NCBI GenBank assembly: GCA_026707585.1
Contig: JAPOWQ010000001.1
Coordinates: forward strand, 1 to 64,000
Length of the DNA: 64,000 nucleotides
Reading direction: 5' to 3'
Source: Chloroflexota bacterium
GTDB taxonomy: Bacteria; Chloroflexota; UBA11872
Under the pieces are notes generated by a model. The model had not been told where the DNA came from. It did no database searches and was given only the letters and a program-made list of their open reading frames with translations. Below are positions 331-14,271 of this stretch, piece by piece. A program made the translations under genes and the position numbers. The first letter of the stretch is position 1. Each line of letters begins with the position of its first letter.

Positions 331-489
331 GGGCGCGCTCAGTCAGGGTGTGGAGCACCTCCTCGTTGACGATCGCGTGGAGGCCGGCGAGCCGGACGGC
401 GTCGGGTTCGCCGTCCGCGAGGTCACGTAGAGCGGCCGTTACTTCGTCAGTTCTCAGCCGGAGTCTCGTGGAAAAAGGCGCCCTCCTGG

Positions 490-840
490 ATGCTCGGCAA
501 CCTCGTCACCAACTCGCAGGACGTCCTCGGCTGGGGCCACCGTATGCGGGAGATCGGCTACACCGGCGGCGCCGGAAACCAGCCCCGCTGGCTCTTCCTG
601 CCCTACGGCATCGACTGCCTTAACTGGTTCCCCGCCGGCTGCGTCGCCCGCTGGCCCGACAGCGTTCAGCGCAGCTTCATGTATCCCAGCGCCGTCATCG
701 ACGCCCACGACCTCGTCATCCTCTCCCGCACCAGCCGCCACGCCGCCAACCAGCACGACGCCGACCTCTGCACCATCCACCGCATCCCCAACTTCCGCTC
801 CCTCGCCATGGAGCTCCACCAGGGCGGTCTGGCCCAATAG
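490..840 (+). pseudogene. C-terminal remnant of a sialidase/BNR-like protein
   Basis: SFMYPSAVIDAHDLVILSRTSRHAANQHDADLCTIHRIPNFRSLAMEL; related fragment at 8203-8340; no N-terminal portion present. Confidence 0.4.
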
Positions 841-908
841 CAATGTCGAGCTAAAGGGCTGGGTAGTCTGGAATCCAGGTGCCGCGCGACCCAATTCAGG
901 AGAATCAG

Positions 909-1942: not shown

Positions 1943-4096
1943 GTGCACATGAATGAAACAAACGACTCAGACGAGCGACCGGATCTCCTAGGTCGGCTCG
2001 GCCCAGAGATCGAACGCGAAGAATCGTCTAGCCGCCTGACCGCTGCTGCTCAGGCGATCGCGGCTCTTCAGGATTCCGACTCTCAAGTCGGCGATCTCAT
2101 ACGGATGGACTTCCACGAGGCACACGTCTTGGTGCATGACGCCTTGCGGCAGCAGGTCGGTGGCGTTCCACATGGCTGCCTCCTATTGGCAGCGCGGACT
2201 CACGCAGTTGGAGATGCAGCACCAGATTCAGCCGATTCCATGCCATCACTCTTGCTACTGCGCGTTCTTGGCAACAGCCAACTGCCCAACGACATCGAGA
2301 TGCACCAGGCACGATTCCAGGCCGGCCAGAGGGCTTCGGATAGTCCCTACAATTGGGACGAACACCAAAACACAGATCAGTTTACGCTAAACCAAATGCG
2401 CTATGCGGGCCTTCGTTGCTCGATCCTGGGTACTTTTCGCATGACCATTGGGACTGATTCCGAGGAGTGGCAGCTGACATTTGGAAGCGATATTGACAAC
2501 TTCTATGCTGGACAGGGAATGAAGATCTACAAACCCGTAGAATCCGCTCTGGAACAGATTATCAACTTCACTCAGGATAGCGATTCCGATGCCAGTCGAG
2601 TTCGTATTGGCGAGATCAAGTACGCTTCGGCGCTGGATAGTGGCCGTCCCGAGTCCGTGCCTGTACTAATGACGACCCGCGATGTAGTTGCGCAACGTAC
2701 GGCGCTGTTTGGGATGACAAGAACCGGAAAATCAAACACGGTTAAGACGATATCCCGTGCAGTCTTTTCGTTGCGACTTGACGCTTCCAAACCGGAGCGA
2801 GTCGCACAGCTGATTATCGATCCTAATGGCGAGTATGCAAACGACAATCCACAGGATGCCGGCTGCCTAAGGAACGTAGGTCACCTTAGCGGTGCACGAC
2901 CGGATGACGTAGTGACCTATGGCCTGACTCCTCATCCCAACGATCCGGGACGAAGAATAACGAAGATGAACTTTTTTGGACCAGAGCTCCCAACCGCGCC
3001 GCCGCGCACCGCGGAAAGTATTCACGACGACTTGCAATCCCTCTATATGGGAAAGCAGATCATCGACGGCAGGCTTGATGAAGAGAGTGCTGGATATATA
3101 GCTGCATTCCGGGCCACTGACCTGACGGCTCCTCGTGGCGTAACAGACTGGAGCGAATACGTTCGCTACCGTCGGGCGGTGTTTGTGTATCGCTCGGTGC
3201 TAGCAGCCGCCGGGTTCGAATTGCCACGCGGCGAAGTCTCGGTCAGCAGACTTTTTAGTCGCGATGTTCGCGACGCCATGAATCGAGATGACGACCTATC
3301 CGGTTTTGTGCCTCAGCTAGACGATCGGCTACCTTGGGACGTTGCAGCCGAATTCTGCAAGCACTTTAGCGAGTGGTTCAGAAGCGGGGGCGGACGTGCT
3401 TTTGACCGTCAATACCAAATCGCCAACGATGGCCGGAACTGGAGCGACGACCGACTACTAAACCTATTGCGAATCTTCGAGAACACTAGAGGAGTTCAAG
3501 CCATTCGGGAATGCCGCGAGTGGCACGACCGGGATCGCAACACAGAGTACACTGAAGAAATCGTGGCTGACTTGGATGCAGGTAGGCTAGTAATCCTTGA
3601 CCAGGCTCTCGGCGACCCAAATATGAACGTCCAGGCCGCAGAACGCATCATGCGTGCAATCTTCGTTCGACAGCAACGGCGATTCACCAATCCGCTAGAG
3701 GGATCAGACGGATCGTATCTTCGGCCGAATCCTGTCATAATCTACGTTGAAGAGGCTCACACACTTCTTCCTCGCGGTAGTGAGGAGGATACGACCAACA
3801 TTTGGGCACGCACCGCAAAAGAAGGCGCTAAATTCAATATTGGACTCGTCTATTCTACGCAAGAACCTTCGTCAATCCAGCGCAACATCCTGCGGAATAC
3901 CGAGAACTGGTTCCTCTCTCATCTCAATAGCACAGGCGAAACCCGCGAGCTAGATCAGTACAACGACTTCGCAGATTTCTCCGGGAGTATCCGGCGTGTA
4001 AAGGAACCGGGTTTTTTGAAGGTGCGGATGATGTCGAATCCTTATACGCTGCCTGTCCAAATTGACCTTTTTACGGCGCCAGCGGCGCCGGAGTAA
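1943..4096 (+). CDS. HerA-like (DUF87) FtsK/HerA-superfamily ATPase
   Basis: Walker A GMTRTGKSNT, LIIDPNGEY, Walker B VIIYVEEAHTLLP, followed by STQEPSSIQRNILRNTENWFLSHL; GTG start 1943 or ATG 1949. Confidence 0.85.
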   Translation: MHMNETNDSDERPDLLGRLGPEIEREESSSRLTAAAQAIAALQDSDSQVGDLIRMDFHEAHVLVHDALRQQVGGVPHGCLLLAARTHAVGDAAPDSADSMPSLLLLRVLGNSQLPNDIEMHQARFQAGQRASDSPYNWDEHQNTDQFTLNQMRYAGLRCSILGTFRMTIGTDSEEWQLTFGSDIDNFYAGQGMKIYKPVESALEQIINFTQDSDSDASRVRIGEIKYASALDSGRPESVPVLMTTRDVVAQRTALFGMTRTGKSNTVKTISRAVFSLRLDASKPERVAQLIIDPNGEYANDNPQDAGCLRNVGHLSGARPDDVVTYGLTPHPNDPGRRITKMNFFGPELPTAPPRTAESIHDDLQSLYMGKQIIDGRLDEESAGYIAAFRATDLTAPRGVTDWSEYVRYRRAVFVYRSVLAAAGFELPRGEVSVSRLFSRDVRDAMNRDDDLSGFVPQLDDRLPWDVAAEFCKHFSEWFRSGGGRAFDRQYQIANDGRNWSDDRLLNLLRIFENTRGVQAIRECREWHDRDRNTEYTEEIVADLDAGRLVILDQALGDPNMNVQAAERIMRAIFVRQQRRFTNPLEGSDGSYLRPNPVIIYVEEAHTLLPRGSEEDTTNIWARTAKEGAKFNIGLVYSTQEPSSIQRNILRNTENWFLSHLNSTGETRELDQYNDFADFSGSIRRVKEPGFLKVRMMSNPYTLPVQIDLFTAPAAPE

Positions 4097-5424
4097 TGCC
4101 CTACGACAGCGAGTTTGCCAGCGGCGATTCACTTTGGCGGTTGGTCGAGAGTGAGAGCGTCAAGGAATTCCAGGGCGTTGTCCGCCACGGTGGACCGGAG
4201 CAAGTAGCTGATCCGCCTTCTACGCTCTCGCCACCGCGTGGCCTTGATCGAATCACACGAATAATCGTAATTGATGGCTCCACGGTCACCAGTGCGGTTC
4301 GCATAGGCTATCCCGGTGCTGAGGCAGCTCTTCTTCAGCTTGCCGCCGTCATCATTGACCTCGCGGCGCTAAGGGATATCCCACTTGCTTCCATCCCACG
4401 CCCCAGCACCATGAGGGGTATGGAGGACTGCAGGACACTTGATGCCGTGCTTCCAGGTCGAAACGTAGTTCGCCGAGATGTTGCTGACGACACGCCCGAA
4501 CGCTACTTCCGTTTCACGATTCACCAGATGCTGTCGGGCAGGAGAGTTGACCGCGATCACGAGACGCTCATTGAGACCATGCGCGCCATCACACCGCCGC
4601 GGCAGGGCTTTCGCTGTCCGGTGAGCGACTGCGAGAATTCAATCCCGGCTCTGGAGGGAGCCGGAGTGTGTCCCTGCGAAAGAAAGGAGCCAGTGTTTGA
4701 AACTGACAGTCTGCGGCTGCACGAGCGATTTGAGGATCACGGTTCGTCGGCACAGGCTTATACCGCGGCGCGGCAGGTCGTCGAGCACCTTGCCATGGTC
4801 AACATCATGCGGTTCTTCGAACGCTGCAATTGGTGGAGCGCTTTTCGCACAACCGCATTCGTGATGGACGGCCCGCTGGCGATTTTCGGTATGCCTGCAT
4901 GGCTGAAGCATCACGTTCAGGCAGAGGTCGGCCGTTTGCATGCGCAGGCATTGTCGCGGGGTGGCGACGGCGTGATGCTCTTTGGTGTGGAGAAGAGCGG
5001 CATGTTCCTTGAGCACCTGAAGGCACTTGACCAGAGCGACTTCGAAGGTCCCCGCGCTCGCCTTCGGCCCGGTCTTGCACTGGCTCCCGACCGCACGTAC
5101 ACCCACCGGCATATTGCCCTGCGTCCTCAAGACGCCAAACCCCACGGCGACGTCACCGACTACGGCCGCCGGGTGCTCTACAAGAACAGATTGGGGCAGC
5201 ACTCAGTCCTCATGACACCAATTGTGAACGACGAGGGCCAGGATCGAGACTGCATCGACGAAGCCGCTTTTCCCCGTCTGGGAGAGGCACTTGACGTCAT
5301 GGATGAGTTCTCCACCTACCTATACGAGGACGGCTTCGTTCCGCTGGTGCGCGCACATGCTCACGCCGCGATACCTCTCAAGGCCGGTATCGGGCTACTA
5401 ACAGAGCTCTTCGCGGACGAATGA
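4096..5424 (+). CDS. NurA-like nuclease with Cys-rich (zinc-ribbon-like) insertion
   Basis: IIVIDGS near the N-terminus, FVMDGPLAIFGMPAWLKHHV, GVEKSGMFLEHLK; insert RCPVSDCENS..GVCPCE; 1-nt overlap with the HerA stop. Confidence 0.65.
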   Translation: MPYDSEFASGDSLWRLVESESVKEFQGVVRHGGPEQVADPPSTLSPPRGLDRITRIIVIDGSTVTSAVRIGYPGAEAALLQLAAVIIDLAALRDIPLASIPRPSTMRGMEDCRTLDAVLPGRNVVRRDVADDTPERYFRFTIHQMLSGRRVDRDHETLIETMRAITPPRQGFRCPVSDCENSIPALEGAGVCPCERKEPVFETDSLRLHERFEDHGSSAQAYTAARQVVEHLAMVNIMRFFERCNWWSAFRTTAFVMDGPLAIFGMPAWLKHHVQAEVGRLHAQALSRGGDGVMLFGVEKSGMFLEHLKALDQSDFEGPRARLRPGLALAPDRTYTHRHIALRPQDAKPHGDVTDYGRRVLYKNRLGQHSVLMTPIVNDEGQDRDCIDEAAFPRLGEALDVMDEFSTYLYEDGFVPLVRAHAHAAIPLKAGIGLLTELFADE

Positions 5425-6626
5425 GCGCGACTAGTCTTCGAGAAGTCCCGGCCATGACCGGCTTCGGAACCGCCGAGAGCCGGTGGGCGCGACTGGGACC
5501 CTACTACGCGATGTTCCCCGTGGAATTCGCGCGGCAAGTCATAGCAGCCTTTAGCAAACGTGGCGACATCGTTCTCGACCCGTTTTGCGGACGTGGCACT
5601 GCACCTTACGTCGCCATGGTCTCCGGCCGCGGTGCCTTCGGCTGTGACATCAATCCCGTTGCGTGGCTGTACGCTGCCGCCAAGACGTGTCCCCATCAAT
5701 CACTGGCCGACGTGACTCGGCGCATTGACGAGGTTGCCGGCGCCATTCGTGCTCAAGATCGCCAGCCCGCCGACGAGTTTCAAGCGCTCGCGTTCGGTCC
5801 GCGAGCGCTCGGATTCATCAATAGTGCTCGCCGAGAACTGAGTTGGCGTGACTGCGTCCGGGATCGAACGGTCGCCGCACTGCTGCTCCACTACCTGCAC
5901 GCAAAGCTTGGGGGAGGTCTCTCAAACCAGTTGCGGCCGACACGGGCAATGTGCCCTGACTATTCCGTGCGTTGGTGGCGCAAGCGTGGGCTAGCGGCTC
6001 CGCCGGACATTGACGCAGCCGCGTTCTTGCGTGATCGCGCTGCTTGGCGTTTCGCGAAAGGAGTTCCGGCACGGTCTGGCCACGCCTGCATATCACTTGG
6101 CGATGCCTCCCACGCCTTGCCGCAAATGCATGCCCCCGCCGATCTGGTACTTACGTCGCCTCCTTACGTTGGAGTTACCAACTATCGGGCCGATAACTGG
6201 ATCAGGCTGTGGGCATTGGGAGAGGGTCCGCCGCGACCTGACTGGTCCACCGACCAGAAGTTTTGTAGTCCCAAGAAATACGAAGCCATGCTTCTAAGCG
6301 TGTTCGCGGAAACGCGCTCAAGGGCACGACCAACTGCGGTTTGGTGCCTCCGAGTGGATGCCAGGGAGCGGACGCTCGCGGTCGTTCGCCGAATCCTGGA
6401 TGGCCTGCTGCCGCAACACCGACGTTACGAGCGAGTGTCCCCGTCGCCAAAACGGACCCAAACGGCGCTGTATGGCGATCATCGAACAAAGCCGGGAGAC
6501 ATTGATCTCGTTTACCTTCCTTCACCCAAGTTGTCCGAACGTCTCAGCGGCCTTACCTCGGATGGCACCTCGACCTTTGACCGAGAGTTCCTAAGTCCTC
6601 TTGAGCCGGAACCGATGACCGCCTAA
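5421..6626 (+). CDS. SAM-dependent DNA methyltransferase (SPPY type)
   Basis: Motif I DPFCGRGTAPYVA...GCDINP; motif IV LVLTSPPYVGVTNYRADNW; 4-nt ATGA overlap with the upstream gene. Confidence 0.8.
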   Translation: MSATSLREVPAMTGFGTAESRWARLGPYYAMFPVEFARQVIAAFSKRGDIVLDPFCGRGTAPYVAMVSGRGAFGCDINPVAWLYAAAKTCPHQSLADVTRRIDEVAGAIRAQDRQPADEFQALAFGPRALGFINSARRELSWRDCVRDRTVAALLLHYLHAKLGGGLSNQLRPTRAMCPDYSVRWWRKRGLAAPPDIDAAAFLRDRAAWRFAKGVPARSGHACISLGDASHALPQMHAPADLVLTSPPYVGVTNYRADNWIRLWALGEGPPRPDWSTDQKFCSPKKYEAMLLSVFAETRSRARPTAVWCLRVDARERTLAVVRRILDGLLPQHRRYERVSPSPKRTQTALYGDHRTKPGDIDLVYLPSPKLSERLSGLTSDGTSTFDREFLSPLEPEPMTA

Positions 6627-6724: not shown

Positions 6725-6937
6725 TCAAGCCTCGTCTTCTTCCGCCTCCGATTCCTGCACCGACAGGTTCAGATCCGAAGGCCTATTCGAGAGGCGCAGA
6801 AGTTCCACGCCGACGACTTCCTTCGCCTCGTTGCAGTCCAGTACGACCCCCGGCGAAACTTCTTCCGACTCAACAATCTCCGAGTCATCCAGGCGCAGGC
6901 ACAGCGCGTCGGCTTCCCGGTTTACCCTCAGCTTCAT
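6725..6937 (-). CDS. DUF2283 domain-containing small protein (copy 2)
   Basis: MKLRVNREADALCLRLDDSEIVESEEVSPGVVLDCNEAKEVVGVELL; paralogue of 1437-1637. Confidence 0.75.
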   Translation of the reverse strand: MKLRVNREADALCLRLDDSEIVESEEVSPGVVLDCNEAKEVVGVELLRLSNRPSDLNLSVQESEAEEDEA

Positions 6938-7035
6938 AGCCCACCTCGCCTTCCTCGATCAAAGAATACGCCGAGAAGTCACGACTCTCCGCACTTCGCG
7001 TGAATGCCCACACGGCATGCTGACGACGCCCCACC
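6761..7035. repeat. Right copy of about 275 bp direct repeat
   Basis: Constant +5300 offset from 1461-1735. Confidence 0.8.
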
Positions 7036-7083
7036 GACGCGCCGCAAACGGCACATCCCGGTCCTCCATCTCATCGCTGGATG

Positions 7084-8688: not shown

Positions 8689-9480
8689 ATTGCGCGCGAG
8701 ACCGCCCGTTCCGCCGTCCACGCCTTCGTCCTCCTCGCCACCCTCCTCGCCGCCTGCGACCCCGCCCCCACCCGCGAACTCCACGTCTTCGCCGCCGCCT
8801 CCCTCCGCGGAGCCCTCACCCAAGCCGCTGATGCCTTTGAATCCCGCAATCCCGGCATCCGCATCGTCCCCAACTTCGCCGGCTCCCAGGTCCTCCGCCT
8901 CCAAATCGAATCCGGCGCCCGCGCCGACCTCTTCATCTCCGCCAACCCCGATCACCTTGATGCCCTCCAACCGGCCGGCCTCCTCGCGGCGCCCCCCACC
9001 GCCGTCGCCACCAACCAGCTCGTCATCGCCGTCCCCGGCGCCAACCCCGCCGGCATCACCGGCCTTCAGGACCTCACCCAACCCGAGCGCCGCGTCGTCA
9101 TGGCCGCCGAATCCGTCCCCGCCGGCACTTACGCCCGCCAGATGCTCGCCCGCCACGCCGCCGCCACTGGCCAACCCGGATTCGCCGACGCCGTCCTACA
9201 GCGCGTCATCTCCTTCGAGACCAACGTCCGCCAGGTCGCCGCCAAGCTCGAACTCGACGAAGCCGACGCCGGCTTCGTCTACCGCACCGACGTCCACGCC
9301 TCCCACGGCCGCCTGCATGTCATCGAAACCCCGCCCCAGGTCCAGGTCACCGCCCGCTACCCCGCCGCCATCCTCCGCGACGCCCCGAACCCCGAGCTGG
9401 CCCAGCGCTTCCTCACCTTCCTCGGCACCCCCCAGGCCCACGCCATCCTCACCCGCCACGGATTCGGTGCTCCCGCATGA
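8689..9480 (+). CDS. modA: Molybdate ABC transporter substrate-binding lipoprotein (start uncertain; possible ATT at 8689)
   Basis: Lipobox LLATLLAACD, ELHVFAAASLRGALTQAADAFESRNPGIRIVPNFAGSQVL typical of ModA; followed by modB and modC. Confidence 0.8.
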   Translation: MARETARSAVHAFVLLATLLAACDPAPTRELHVFAAASLRGALTQAADAFESRNPGIRIVPNFAGSQVLRLQIESGARADLFISANPDHLDALQPAGLLAAPPTAVATNQLVIAVPGANPAGITGLQDLTQPERRVVMAAESVPAGTYARQMLARHAAATGQPGFADAVLQRVISFETNVRQVAAKLELDEADAGFVYRTDVHASHGRLHVIETPPQVQVTARYPAAILRDAPNPELAQRFLTFLGTPQAHAILTRHGFGAPA

Positions 9481-9623
9481 CCCCGCCGGTGCGATGATTC
9501 GCCTCGCCGCCTTGAGAGGACCCTGACCTGACCCCGCCCCGCGCCGCTCCACTCGCCTGGAGCCAGCTCCTAGGCTGGCTCCTCGCGGCCCTCACCCTGG
9601 CCCTCGTCCTCGCCCCGGTCGGA

Positions 9624-10340
9624 GTGCTCATCGCCCGCGGCGTCACCCAGGCCGACATCGGCGCGGCCCTCGCCAGCCCCTTCGTCCGCGGTGCCGTTCA
9701 GCTCTCGCTCGTCACCTCCGCCATCGCCGTGCTGGCCATCGTGGCCCTTGGCACGCCAACGGCCTACCTCCTGGCCCGCCGCCACTTCCCCGGCCGCGCC
9801 CTGGTGGATGCAGTCATCGACCTGCCCATCGTCCTGCCCCCCGTCGTCGGCGGCCTGGCCCTGCTCCTGCTCCTGGGTCGCCAGGGACCCGTCGGCGGCC
9901 CGCTGGCCGGAGCCGGGGTTGATGTCGCCTTCACCACCGCCGCCGTTGTCCTGGCCCAGATGTTCGTCGCCGCCCCCTTCTACATCCGCGCCGCCCGCGC
10001 CGGGTTCGAGAGCGTCGACCAGCGTCTCGAAGCCGTCTCTGCCACCCTCGGCGCCCGCCCCTGGCGCACCTTTCGTCGCATCACCGTCCCGCTGGCTCTC
10101 CCCTCGCTGGCCGGCGGCGCCGTCATGGCCTGGGCCCGCGCCCTCGGCGAATTCGGCGCCACCATCATGTTTGCCGGCAACGTTGCCGGCCGCACCCAGA
10201 CCATGCCCCTCGCCATTCTCGAAGCCATGGAAGCCGACGCCAACGCCGCCATCGCCATCGCCGTCGTCCTGGCCGCCATTGCTCTCGCCGTCCTGATCAC
10301 CTTCCGAGGCCTCGCCCGCGCCGGAAGCCGCGCCTTGTGA
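9624..10340 (+). CDS. modB: Molybdate ABC transporter permease (true start probably slightly upstream)
   Basis: VVLPPVVGGLALLLLLG, LGARPWRTFRRITVPLALPSLAGGAVMAWARALGEFGATIMFAGN. Confidence 0.85.
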   Translation: MLIARGVTQADIGAALASPFVRGAVQLSLVTSAIAVLAIVALGTPTAYLLARRHFPGRALVDAVIDLPIVLPPVVGGLALLLLLGRQGPVGGPLAGAGVDVAFTTAAVVLAQMFVAAPFYIRAARAGFESVDQRLEAVSATLGARPWRTFRRITVPLALPSLAGGAVMAWARALGEFGATIMFAGNVAGRTQTMPLAILEAMEADANAAIAIAVVLAAIALAVLITFRGLARAGSRAL

Positions 10341-11419
10341 TCCACATCGACGTCGCCCTCACGCTCGGCGACTTCCGGCTCGCCCCCAGGCTTCAGGTCG
10401 GTCCCGGCATCACCGTCCTCTTCGGCCAGTCTGGCGCCGGCAAGACCCTCACCCTCGAAGCCATCGCCGGACTCCTCACCCCCGACCGCGGCCGCATCGC
10501 CATCCACGACCGCCCGGTTTTCGACGCCGCGGCCGGCCTCAACGTCCCGCCCTACGACCGCCGCCTCGGCTACGTCGTCCAGAGCTACGCCCTTTTCCCC
10601 CACCTCACCGTGGCCCAGAACGTCGCCTACGGCGTCTTCGATCTACCCCGCGCCGAGCGCCAGCAACGGGTCGACGACCTGCTCCGAACCCTGGGTATTC
10701 AGGACCTTGCCGACCGCCGTCCTGCCCAGATCTCCGGCGGCCAGGCCCAGCGCACCGCTCTGGCCCGAGCCCTGGTCCGCCGCCCCCAGGCCCTCCTGCT
10801 CGACGAACCGTTCGCTGCCCTCGACGAAGGCGTTGCCCTCACCCTGCGCCGCGAGCTCCGCCGCCTCGTTCGCGACCTGGGCCTCCCGGTCTTGATGGTC
10901 ACCCACGACCTCACCGAGGCCAGCCACATCGGCGATCGCATTGCCGTCATGGACGCCGGCCAGGTCCTCCAGGTCGGTGACCGTCCCGACGTACTTCAGC
11001 ACCCCCGTTCGGCCCGCGTCTCCCACCTCCTCGGCATCGCCAATGTGCTCCAGGGTGAAGTCGCCGGCTCTGAGAACGGCATTGCGGTCGTCACTCCAAT
11101 CGGCCCGCTACACACCGCCCAGACTGGCCTCACCGAAGGCCCCGTCCGGATCGCCATCCGCGCCGACCAGATCATCCTCACCCGCCCCGACCGACCACCC
11201 GACAACCGCCTAAACACACTGGACGTCGAGATCACCGACGAAGCCGACTTCGGCCACTCCCGCACCCTCTACGCCCGCCTCGCCAACGCAACTGAAGCCT
11301 CAGCCCCAACCCTCGAAATCCAAATCGCCCCCCATCCCTACCAGGTCATGGGCGTCGCCACCCGCCGCCACTGGCGCGTCCACATCCCCCCCGAAGCCGT
11401 CCACGTCATGCAGACCTGA
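10337..11419 (+). CDS. modC: Molybdate ABC transporter ATP-binding protein
   Basis: Walker A FGQSGAGKT, signature ISGGQAQRTALARAL, Walker B LLLDEPFAALDE, C-terminal TOBE-like region; GTG start. Confidence 0.85.
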   Translation: MIHIDVALTLGDFRLAPRLQVGPGITVLFGQSGAGKTLTLEAIAGLLTPDRGRIAIHDRPVFDAAAGLNVPPYDRRLGYVVQSYALFPHLTVAQNVAYGVFDLPRAERQQRVDDLLRTLGIQDLADRRPAQISGGQAQRTALARALVRRPQALLLDEPFAALDEGVALTLRRELRRLVRDLGLPVLMVTHDLTEASHIGDRIAVMDAGQVLQVGDRPDVLQHPRSARVSHLLGIANVLQGEVAGSENGIAVVTPIGPLHTAQTGLTEGPVRIAIRADQIILTRPDRPPDNRLNTLDVEITDEADFGHSRTLYARLANATEASAPTLEIQIAPHPYQVMGVATRRHWRVHIPPEAVHVMQT

Positions 11420-11452
11420 CATGCTTGCAGCAGACAGTCCCAACTTTCTGCC

Positions 11453-12274
11453 ATGACCTACACCGCCGAACTTGCCTTTGCCGTCGATATCGTCCGCCGC
11501 GCCGCCGGACCGGCCCTGGCGCTCTTTGAGCGTCCCGATCTTTCCGTCTTCGAAAAGCCTGACGGCACCATCGTCACCCAGGCTGACCTCGACGTTAATG
11601 ACGTCATCGTCGAAGCCATCGCCTCCGCCTTCCCCGACGACGCCATCCTCTCCGAGGAAGGTCTCGACGACCCGGATCGCCTGAGCAAGTCGCGCTGCTG
11701 GATCGTCGACCCCATCGACGGCACCTCCCACTTCGAACGCGGCGACCGCGACTGGTCGATCATGCTTGCGCTCGCGGTGGATGGTCAGGCCGTCGTTGGC
11801 GCCGTCAACCGTCCCGCGATGCGCGAACTTCGGTTGGGTGCTGTGGGAGTTGAACCGACTATGGAGCACCACGAACGAACGACCCAACTGAAGGCAACGC
11901 CGCTGGCTGGCTCATCGCTCTACGTCATGCACAGTCCAACCGCCGCGGCCATCGCCGAAGTGCCCGGAGGTGCCGGCGCGAGTTTCAAGGTCTTTTACCA
12001 CGGCCTAATGAGCATGACGACCATGCTCTCTGCCGGGATGCACGCGTACGTGACGCCCCGCACAACTGGCTACGAGTGGGACCTGGCGCCGCACGCCGCA
12101 ATTCTTGGAGCGGCCGGCGGCCTGGTAACCGACTTCCAAAGCCGCCCACACACCTTCAACTCGGCGGACCCGTTGATCCGTGGCGGCGTCATTGCAGCCG
12201 TGTCGCCCGAAGCGCATACCCGCGTACTCTCCCTGGTGCGCGAGGCCCGGCTCAAACCCTTTCAGGGCACCTAG
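11453..12274 (+). CDS. Inositol monophosphatase family protein
   Basis: DDAILSEEGLDDP, WIVDPIDGTSHFERG, YEWDLAPHAAILGAAGG. Confidence 0.85.
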   Translation: MTYTAELAFAVDIVRRAAGPALALFERPDLSVFEKPDGTIVTQADLDVNDVIVEAIASAFPDDAILSEEGLDDPDRLSKSRCWIVDPIDGTSHFERGDRDWSIMLALAVDGQAVVGAVNRPAMRELRLGAVGVEPTMEHHERTTQLKATPLAGSSLYVMHSPTAAAIAEVPGGAGASFKVFYHGLMSMTTMLSAGMHAYVTPRTTGYEWDLAPHAAILGAAGGLVTDFQSRPHTFNSADPLIRGGVIAAVSPEAHTRVLSLVREARLKPFQGT

Positions 12275-12323
12275 CGTTGCTGCGCCGCTACACTCCGCCC
12301 AATCCACGCCCCGGAGCCGCGTC

Positions 12324-13793
12324 ATGCGCATAGCCACCGGCAACATCGGGCACGAGTCCAGCACCTTCACGCCTATCGAAACGCCGTACGAGGCCTTTTC
12401 CGAAGCCTCCCGCGGCTTCCACCGCGGCCCCGAGCTCATCGAGGCCATGCGCGATACCAACACCGGCTGCGGCGGCTTTATCGATGCGGTGGCAACCCAC
12501 GGCTACGAGCTGGCCCCGCTCCTCTGGACCTTCGCCGAACCCTCCGGTCCGGTCCACTCGGACGCCTGGACCCGCCTCAAGGCCGAGTTCCTCGAACGCC
12601 TCGAAGCAGCCATGCCCGTCGACGGCGCCCTTCTGGACTTGCACGGCGCCATGGTCATTGAGGGCATCGACGACGGCGAGGGCGATCTCCTGCGCGGCGT
12701 CCGGGCCATCCTCGGACCCGACCGTCCGATCATCGTCACCCTCGACCTGCACGCCAACATCAGCGACACCATGGCCGAGCTGTCCGATGTCATCATTCCT
12801 TGCGACACCTATCCGCACGTCGACTTTCGCGAGCGCGGCCGCGAAGCCGCCGACCTCATCGTCCGCACGCTGCGCGGCGAGATTCGCCCCTCCATGGCGG
12901 TCAGGCTTCTGCCCCTGCTCTGGGCCGGCGGGAACGTCACCGGCTTCGAGCCTTTCGATGGCATCGTCGCCCGCGCCCACCAGCTCGAAGCCCAACCCGG
13001 CATCCTCAGCGCCTCCGTCAATCCGGGCTTCGCCTGGGCCGACATTCCCGAGGCCGGCACCTCCGTCGTCGTCGTGGCCGACGGCGATCCGGCCAGGGCC
13101 CGGCGCGAGGCTAGGGCCTACGCCGACTGGGTCTTCGGGCAACGCCACCAGTTCCTGGTCGACCTGGTCCGGTTCGACGACGCCTTCGCCGAAACCCGCT
13201 CGGCTGGACCCGGAACCATCGTCATCGCCGACGGCCAGGACAACCCCGGCGGCGGCGCCCCTGGCGACTCAACCGGCATGCTGCGCACCTTCATCCAGCA
13301 TGATCTCCAGGACGCGCTCGTCCTTACCATCTGTGACCCCGAAACCGTCCAACTCGCCCAGGCCGCCGGGCACGATGCCGAAGTCGAAGTCGCCATCGGC
13401 GGCAAGTCGCACCCCGACCAGGGTCCACCCCTGCACGCCCGCGCCACCGTCGAACGGCTCCTCAACCTCGAATTCGTCATTCGCGGACCGATGATGACGG
13501 GCCTGACCCAGAAGTTTGGACCTACCGCCCTGCTCCGCATTGGCGGCGTACGCGTCGCCGTAACCACCAACCGCCTGCAAATCTTCAGCCTGGAGTGCCC
13601 CCGCACCCTCGGCCTCGAGCCAACCGCCTTGCGTTGGATCGGCGTCAAGTCCTCAAACCACTTCCGCGCCGCCTACGGCCCCATCGCCACCCAGGTCCAC
13701 CGCGTCGCCTTCCCCGCCGTCCAATCCCACGACCCCCGCGACCTCACCTACCGTCGCCTCCGCCGCCCCATCTTCCCCCTCGACCCCATCTAG
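12324..13793 (+). CDS. M81 family metallopeptidase (MlrC-like)
   Basis: MRIATGNIGHESSTFTPIETPYEAF, ALLDLHGAMVIEGIDDGEGDLL, IPCDTYPHVDFRERGREAADLI, DNPGGGAPGDST. Confidence 0.85.
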   Translation: MRIATGNIGHESSTFTPIETPYEAFSEASRGFHRGPELIEAMRDTNTGCGGFIDAVATHGYELAPLLWTFAEPSGPVHSDAWTRLKAEFLERLEAAMPVDGALLDLHGAMVIEGIDDGEGDLLRGVRAILGPDRPIIVTLDLHANISDTMAELSDVIIPCDTYPHVDFRERGREAADLIVRTLRGEIRPSMAVRLLPLLWAGGNVTGFEPFDGIVARAHQLEAQPGILSASVNPGFAWADIPEAGTSVVVVADGDPARARREARAYADWVFGQRHQFLVDLVRFDDAFAETRSAGPGTIVIADGQDNPGGGAPGDSTGMLRTFIQHDLQDALVLTICDPETVQLAQAAGHDAEVEVAIGGKSHPDQGPPLHARATVERLLNLEFVIRGPMMTGLTQKFGPTALLRIGGVRVAVTTNRLQIFSLECPRTLGLEPTALRWIGVKSSNHFRAAYGPIATQVHRVAFPAVQSHDPRDLTYRRLRRPIFPLDPI

Positions 13794-13833: not shown

Positions 13834-14271
13834 CTAGATGCGCAGCGGATCCAGGACCTCAAGGAATGGAAACCGATGAAAGTCGGTGTCGCGAGTGCAG
13901 ATCCGACTGATCCCGTGCTCTCGCATCACGACCACGGTGTGAAGGTCGTGCATCAGGTTTCCACGAGCTTCCGGTACTTCGTCCAGGGTCTGCGCAAGCA
14001 CTGCCGCATGTCGCGTGGTTGCGGCTAGAACGGAAATGCCCGGCGAGGCCAGCAAGCTGTCAATGAATCCCCACGACTGCCGTGAACTCCACGGCTGAGG
14101 GAAGACGCGTGGATGCGTGCTGATACGGAGAAACTCGTAGCAGATGTTCCAGGTGAGGAACTCCGGAGACGGATCACGCCGCCAATCCTCAAGCCGCCGG
14201 TAGCAGGCTGAGTGAAACTCCGAACTCTCGTTCGCCGCGTACAGGAGCACGTTGGTGTCGAGGACGAGCAC
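13834..14271 (-). CDS. PIN-domain toxin (VapC-like)
   Basis: MLVLDTNVLLYAANESSEFH...NLMHDLHTVVVMREHGISRICTRDTDFHRF. Confidence 0.8.
   Translation of the reverse strand: MLVLDTNVLLYAANESSEFHSACYRRLEDWRRDPSPEFLTWNICYEFLRISTHPRVFPQPWSSRQSWGFIDSLLASPGISVLAATTRHAAVLAQTLDEVPEARGNLMHDLHTVVVMREHGISRICTRDTDFHRFPFLEVLDPLRI

Follow-up and report, generated by a model that had tools for sequence, protein, structure and literature searches.

A HerA-NurA-methyltransferase operon of a Chloroflexota bacterium as a candidate restriction-modification-like defence system

Three overlapping genes for a translocase, a nuclease and a methyltransferase

Three open reading frames lie on one strand of the window (the whole 64-kb stretch of Chloroflexota DNA that was analysed), at 1943-4096, 4096-5424 and 5421-6626, with overlaps of 1-4 bases. 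An earlier note on this DNA had read translational coupling from two stop/start overlaps, TAATG at 4094-4098 and ATGA at 5421-5424, and both are present in the window sequence. The ORF list for the window holds no fourth gene in the operon. The features are:

1442-1741, strand not given: left copy of a flanking repeat, holding a DUF2283-like reading frame
1943-4096, + strand: HerA-family hexameric DNA translocase/ATPase, 717 aa, GTG start (in-frame ATG at 1949 as an alternative start)
2711-2737, + strand: HerA Walker A, GMTRTGKSN, aa 257-265; G257, K263 and S264 each kept by 97-98% of 81 relatives
3749-3760, + strand: HerA Walker B, EEAH, aa 603-606; E603, E604, A605 and H606 100% conserved in 81 relatives
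4096-5424, + strand: NurA-family nuclease with a zinc-ribbon-like insert, 442 aa; from PF09376 matches of its family and AF2/Foldseek
4273-4275, + strand: predicted NurA catalytic Asp D60 in an IDGS motif, 100% conserved
4615-4677, + strand: candidate zinc ribbon within the nuclease (C174, C179, C192, C194), from the alignment of family members; C192 at 95%
4783-4869, + strand: NurA E230 to D258 (DGPL motif), both residues 100% conserved
5421-6626, + strand: DNA methyltransferase, 401 aa, motif I first and SPPY later; PF01555, invariant motifs
5577-5600, + strand: methyltransferase motif I, DPFCGRGT, aa 53-60, from the relatives' alignment
6156-6167, + strand: methyltransferase motif IV, SPPY, aa 246-249, from the relatives' alignment
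6742-7041, strand not given: flanking repeat, right copy, sharing 83% identity with the left one

Repeats and pseudogene-like sequence border the operon, and its DNA is 54-60% GC versus ~67% in most of the remaining window. The window locus itself lies outside any recognised defence island.

The first protein matched PF01935 (DUF87) at 1.6e-8 in Pfam, and its best match among PDB sequences was TdpA (8wet, chain 8wet_A; 5.7e-14), followed by T. kodakarensis HerA (9x1l). Along with the DUF87 match and a sensor Q, the protein carries the Walker A and B motifs that the earlier note had called intact, and their conservation among the relatives bears this out. Walker B has E in place of the usual D, and the EE pair is invariant in the 81 relatives. 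In Deinococcus HerA, residues 487/488 in Walker B are required (PMC9960219); by motif comparison, E603/E604 are likely their equivalents. Solved homologues suggest that the protein would form a hexamer capable of ATP-driven DNA translocation. Matches to models of known defence-associated HerA proteins were weak: <60 bits for the Sir2-HerA and HerA-DUF4297 models of PADLOC, only 44 bits for the HerA-like mad8, and 43.8 bits for HerA_antiphage of NCBIfam, far short of the cut-off of 800.

The middle protein was identified through family-level searches only, as searches with the single sequence found nothing in Pfam, PADLOC or NCBIfam profiles or among PDB sequences (phmmer), and PADLOC-DB 2023 lacks a model for this nuclease. 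Eight of the first 11 aligned family members matched PF09376 (NurA), with a best value of 1.5e-29, and all 11 share D60-G61, E230, D258-G-P-L and K300; D60, E230, D258 and K300 are present in every one of 81 relatives. Since the family profile (A2) matched TdpB alone among PDB sequences, at E 0.14, a comparison of structures was needed. An AF2 model built from 28 sequences reached pLDDT 87.5, and its top Foldseek match was TdpB (8wfd, 8wfd_G; E 1.1e-7, TM 0.50/0.60), with further matches to D. radiodurans HerA-NurA (7f6d), Sso NurA (2ygk), Pfu NurA (3taz) and 1zup. All PDB matches at E <0.001 belong to the NurA family: TdpB, Deinococcus HerA-NurA, Sulfolobus NurA, T. kodakarensis HerA-NurA and Pyrococcus NurA. 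Together, the family profiles, the model and the invariant residues establish the middle gene as a NurA nuclease with an RNase H-like fold and a conserved acidic active site. The NurA motifs claimed for it from the sequence were thus real, and the profiles place the family among nucleases. The D53A mutant of drNurA is nuclease-inactive (PMC9960219), and D60 of the window protein is likely the equivalent residue. A four-cysteine insert at aa 174-194 resembles a zinc ribbon; its cysteines are aligned in the family and absent in one member (L023).

For the third gene, a methyltransferase core with SPPY had been proposed, in agreement with a PF01555 match at 2e-13 and with DPFxGRGT (aa 53-60) and SPPY (aa 246-249) being invariant in 16 relatives of the protein. 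Profile matches included both N4-cytosine and N6-adenine methyltransferases (2zie, 8s9n, CcrM, PvuII), and a fold search returned generic class I methyltransferases only, Dam among them. The SPPY motif and the best profile matches suggest that the product is N4-methylcytosine or N6-methyladenine. The middle region of the protein is conserved and not hypervariable, unlike many R-M specificity domains. PD-Lambda-5_B is not among the best 25 PADLOC models listed for this protein.

Coupling of the HerA-NurA core to methyltransferases

A scan of GTDB genomes with the 11-member alignment A1 gave 80 loci, and scans of viruses and plasmids gave 3 and 4; a single peptide pattern accounts for most of the loci, and the sample is not random. 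Profile searches of the ORFs showed that HerA directly precedes NurA in nearly all loci. Among the 81 loci in which both genes are largely intact, the HerA-NurA core is coupled to a METHYLTRANSFERASE across >12 phyla. A methyltransferase gene was found ≤450 bp from the core in 70 of these 81 loci (69 counted, plus L080, where a broken HerA ORF masked the adjacency), compared to 6 methyltransferases in 685 kb of outer flank. Hosts of the window-type core are Gram-positive, Gram-negative and archaeal.

The partners fall into three classes by Pfam: the window type and a beta type, both PF01555, and a Dam-like type, PF02086. Beta-type genes are upstream of the core in 29 loci (30 with L080), divergent in 1 and downstream in 2, while Dam-like genes are upstream in 10 and downstream in 12 and window-type genes downstream in 9 and upstream in 6. 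The window's arrangement (HerA, NurA, methyltransferase of the window type) recurs at loci where HerA and NurA are both intact, nine of them with the window included, and this recurrence is better than chance. Cultured carriers include Streptomyces cyaneofuscatus NRRL B-2570 for the Dam-like class and Pedobacter alluvionis DSM 19624 and Roseateles depolymerans DSM 11813 for the beta type. On the 81-locus core tree, a quick tree with long branches for L014 and L024, 15 changes of the label for class and position are required. Within each class, similarity of the cores tracks that of the methyltransferases (Mantel r 0.93, 0.64 and 0.65, p = 0.001), showing that the two are co-inherited. In the window clade, the L033 methyltransferase forms a group with those of L027 and L029 (100/99), contradicting the HerA tree; one exchange of the methyltransferase is supported by the tests for both genes, HerA giving the weaker one. 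An intact core with no methyltransferase of the three classes nearby was seen in the cyanobacterial L015, L016, L059, L064 and L069, and also in L045 and L056. Type I R-M genes adjoin the core of L045.

We compared these loci with canonical NurA, which is found by PF09376 in 236 of 400 Chloroflexota genomes, as a rule at one copy per genome. Canonical HerA-NurA of archaea and Deinococcus-Thermus (7f6d, 9x1n, 2ygk) belongs to the same enzyme families and has the same conserved active-site residues. In contrast to the window family, none of 30 canonical Chloroflexota NurA loci had any of the three methyltransferase types within 1.5 kb, a count to which other methyltransferase classes would be invisible with the models used. 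The window nuclease family is sporadic, occurring in 12 of the 400 Chloroflexota genomes. In the class, 2 of 41 genomes have it; in the window's genus, the 12 other genomes all lack it, and canonical NurA is present in 0 of 13 genomes of that genus.

Mobility, neighbours and decay of the cassette

The operon is ~70% identical in DNA sequence over 4.5 kb (2062/2078 to 6517/6520) to an Acidobacteriota contig (L025) and to another Chloroflexota contig (L028), and the flanks of both alignments have no homology beyond the cassette. Homology confined in this way shows that the three genes move en bloc. A Halorarius plasmid bears the trio in the window's order, and in a Vibrio prophage (Vibrio cyclitrophicus 10N.286.55.C4) an integrase gene stands beside HerA and NurA, with a D12 methyltransferase convergent to them. 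This phage also carries genes annotated as Shedu SduA and Gabija GajB, with SduA confirmed, and its D12 methyltransferase matches the PADLOC model PD-Lambda-5_B at 398 bits. Dam-like methyltransferases of some relatives match that model, at 398 and 162 bits. Several relatives adjoin Septu genes, and Septu models match 7 neighbours. Overall, 176 PADLOC families were recorded among 102 neighbours (one per side) compared to 3 among 91 controls, a difference that is dominated by Septu and drawn against controls not matched for phylum.

We also noted damaged loci. In L032, inside a 1.17-Mb contig, HerA is gone and NurA has lost its catalytic half; NurA is frameshifted in L029, possibly by an assembly error; HerA is broken in L080 and split by an IS200/IS605 element in L115. 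The methyltransferase is kept in all four. In L034, HerA and NurA are both damaged and the methyltransferase is absent.

Candidate mechanism, known systems and competing explanations

Given these gene identities, catalytic residues, coupling to methyltransferases of three classes across phyla, movement of the cassette and neighbouring integrase and defence genes, and with the methyltransferase surviving at four loci whose nuclease side is damaged, the operon probably encodes an R-M-like defence: self DNA would carry the methyltransferase's mark, and HerA-NurA would degrade DNA without it. It has the R-M hallmark of an intact-motif DNA methyltransferase linked to a nuclease. As we envisage it, the methyltransferase would modify the host chromosome at its own recognition sites, and a HerA hexamer with a NurA dimer as its cap (HerA6-NurA2, as in solved homologues) would load on DNA and translocate using ATP, degrading unmarked DNA while methylation protects self. 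The weakest step is the source of site specificity. Because three methyltransferase classes serve one core, we favour the methyltransferase itself, or engagement of its sites, as the site-recognition partner over a HerA-NurA that reads one methylated base. The intact cores with no nearby methyltransferase, mainly cyanobacterial, would be dangerous under strict R-M logic, unless a methyltransferase acts in trans, and intact cores of this kind are the main evidence against that logic. Also counting against the reading are L034, where no methyltransferase survives beside the damaged HerA and NurA, the lack of hypervariability in the middle region of the methyltransferase, the position of the window locus outside recognised defence islands, and the reported donation role of a similar Thermus gene set (ICETh1).

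The nearest precedent for a modification-gated HerA-NurA is TdpABC, which the earlier note had not named, a phosphorothioation defence of thermophiles (An et al. 2025, Nat Chem Biol 21:1160, doi 10.1038/s41589-024-01832-w; PDB 8wet, 8wfd, 8y1k). Among solved structures, its TdpA and TdpB come closest to the window HerA and NurA. TdpAB reportedly degrades DNA that lacks phosphorothioate, and the mark is said to protect self. The window proteins are longer than TdpA and TdpB (717 versus 586 and 442 versus 375 aa), the nuclease differs in its zinc-ribbon-like insert, and a base methyltransferase (PF01555) takes the part of the modification gene. Filing the operon as Tdp was ruled out, given that it has no TdpC-type phosphorothioation enzyme.

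The earlier note had framed the locus as R-M-like or DISARM-like. Comparison of loci speaks strongly for the first description, in the identities of the genes, the methyltransferase in 70 of 81 loci, its three classes, the 0 of 30 among canonical loci and the integrase and Septu neighbours, with the activity itself predicted from sequence. The comparison with DISARM did not: this reading was rejected on composition, as the operon lacks DrmA, DrmB and DrmC and no drm profile is among the PADLOC matches listed for the three proteins. DISARM, BREX and MADS are likewise multi-gene, modification-linked restriction systems with an ATPase, but the window proteins also include no PglZ or BrxC. Sir2-HerA and HerA-DUF4297 pair a HerA ATPase with an effector for defence; there the effector is Sir2 or DUF4297 and no modification gene is present, whereas the window effector is of the NurA family. 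PD-lambda-5 is a tested anti-phage system of prophages, described as a compact R-M plus Abi version, and the description does not present it as HerA-NurA (PMC9519451); its B component is matched by the Dam-like methyltransferases of some relatives, and the window methyltransferase is of another class. A PADLOC scan, proposed in the earlier note as a check for an existing name, gave none for it in PADLOC-DB (2023), and literature searches of partial coverage found no paper on a HerA-NurA-methyltransferase defence system.

The strongest specific rival is a module of a mobile element for DNA donation or processing, like the tdtA operon of T. thermophilus ICETh1, which would export host DNA with the methylase as an accessory. 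That operon combines TthHB27I, a NurA-like nuclease (377 aa), the HerA-family TdtA and a 410-aa PF01555 methylase on a mobile element (PMC5365140). Transjugation requires NurA and TdtA (PMC5365140), the effect of the methylase is minor (PMC7767461), and window-type loci are mobile as well, one lying beside a phage integrase. Compared by description only, ICETh1 differs in gene order, in its shorter NurA and in having a type IIG R-M enzyme, which is absent from the window operon, and it might itself be a relative of the window type. We nevertheless consider donation an improbable function here: secretion or conjugation genes were not seen to recur among the loci inspected, the hosts range from Gram-positive and Gram-negative bacteria to archaea, the core is coupled to three methyltransferase classes that donation does not require, and defence genes are among the neighbours. 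The operon could also encode an anti-phage nuclease that is not R-M, acting abortively or by degrading ends, with a methylase that blocks phage modification or senses phage DNA. Bacterial HerA with Sir2 or DUF4297 effectors does defend with no methyltransferase (PMC11291478, PMC12977600), and the cyanobacterial cores mentioned above would fit, but retention of a methyltransferase beside the core in 70 of 81 loci and the invariance of the catalytic motifs in the window class make such a role unlikely too.

End resection is the classical assignment of HerA-NurA (PMC9960219), and a repair pair with a coincidental methyltransferase neighbour would be in line with the lack of canonical NurA in the window's genus; the sporadic accessory distribution, carriage by phage and methyltransferase coupling speak against it, as does canonical NurA, which, where present, is without the three methyltransferase types, and we regard this explanation as very unlikely. 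Equally hard to credit is a degenerate or non-expressed island remnant. The lower GC content, the flanking repeats and pseudogene-like sequence, and a promoter scan that found no sigma-70-like promoter upstream of the operon (a result we consider uninformative) would agree with decay, but the three frames are open and every catalytic residue is intact.

The coupling suggests how a HerA-NurA nuclease could tell self from non-self. More tentatively, HerA-NurA might be a general restriction engine of bacteria and archaea with interchangeable modification enzymes (phosphorothioation in Tdp, methyltransferases of three classes in the present loci), a generalisation that we find plausible but short of probable. 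It would then represent a new type of R-M-like system, with a processive, ring-shaped translocase-nuclease in place of the site-cutting endonuclease and the methyltransferase as the specificity module. Whether HerA-NurA serves repair or immunity is disputed, and adjacent, interchangeable methyltransferases make the question directly testable. A study in T. kodakarensis argues that the HerA-NurA cleavage mode is unfit for end resection and suggests antiviral degradation (PMC12977600). Defence catalogues would gain a phylum-spanning R-M-like family that is apparently uncatalogued and has cultured members.

Repeats shared by two modification cassettes

The HerA-NurA-methyltransferase operon is bracketed by two copies of a direct repeat, which contains a DUF2283-like frame. 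Outside the operon, further repeats were found in scrambled arrangement (125-195/1757-1828 and 661-833/8194-8359).

1442-1741 and 6742-7041: direct repeat, left and right copies, 83% identity between copies
879-1298: DUF3224 protein (7.5e-40)
13834-14271, minus strand: putative PIN-domain-like, toxin-looking ORF, judged by eye

The DUF3224 gene lies just 5´ of the operon and apparently has no relation to it.

Another copy of the bracketing repeat (94%) was detected at a second locus, L127 (G000:C30:209138-209370), near which there is also a 91% copy of window positions 486-841. The L127 repeat copies are close to a different methyltransferase gene (398 aa), with a convergent gene whose product, 206 aa long, resembles a PD-(D/E)XK nuclease. 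Two modification cassettes, the window operon and the L127 methyltransferase locus, lie among these repeats.

HerA-NurA pairs in other genomes

None of the 13 genomes searched from the window's genus matched canonical NurA (PF09376); within the same family, a second genus has six genomes that do.

No methyltransferase gene was found near the cyanobacterial HerA-NurA pairs L015, L016, L059 and L064, which may represent a separate functional branch. Upstream of each is a small gene (~82 aa), which in L015 and L016 carries the annotation of an XRE-like regulator.

Septu genes (PtuA and PtuB-like) are immediately 3´ of the Bacteroidota copies, the gene-by-gene evidence being from L079 alone (9302-12400); L081, L082, L084 and L093 carry genes of similar size. 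Downstream of the HerA-NurA core in L019, L056 and L060 are a UvrD-like helicase (~880 aa; Pfam evidence given for L019) and a protein of ~270-290 aa, perhaps additional subunits.
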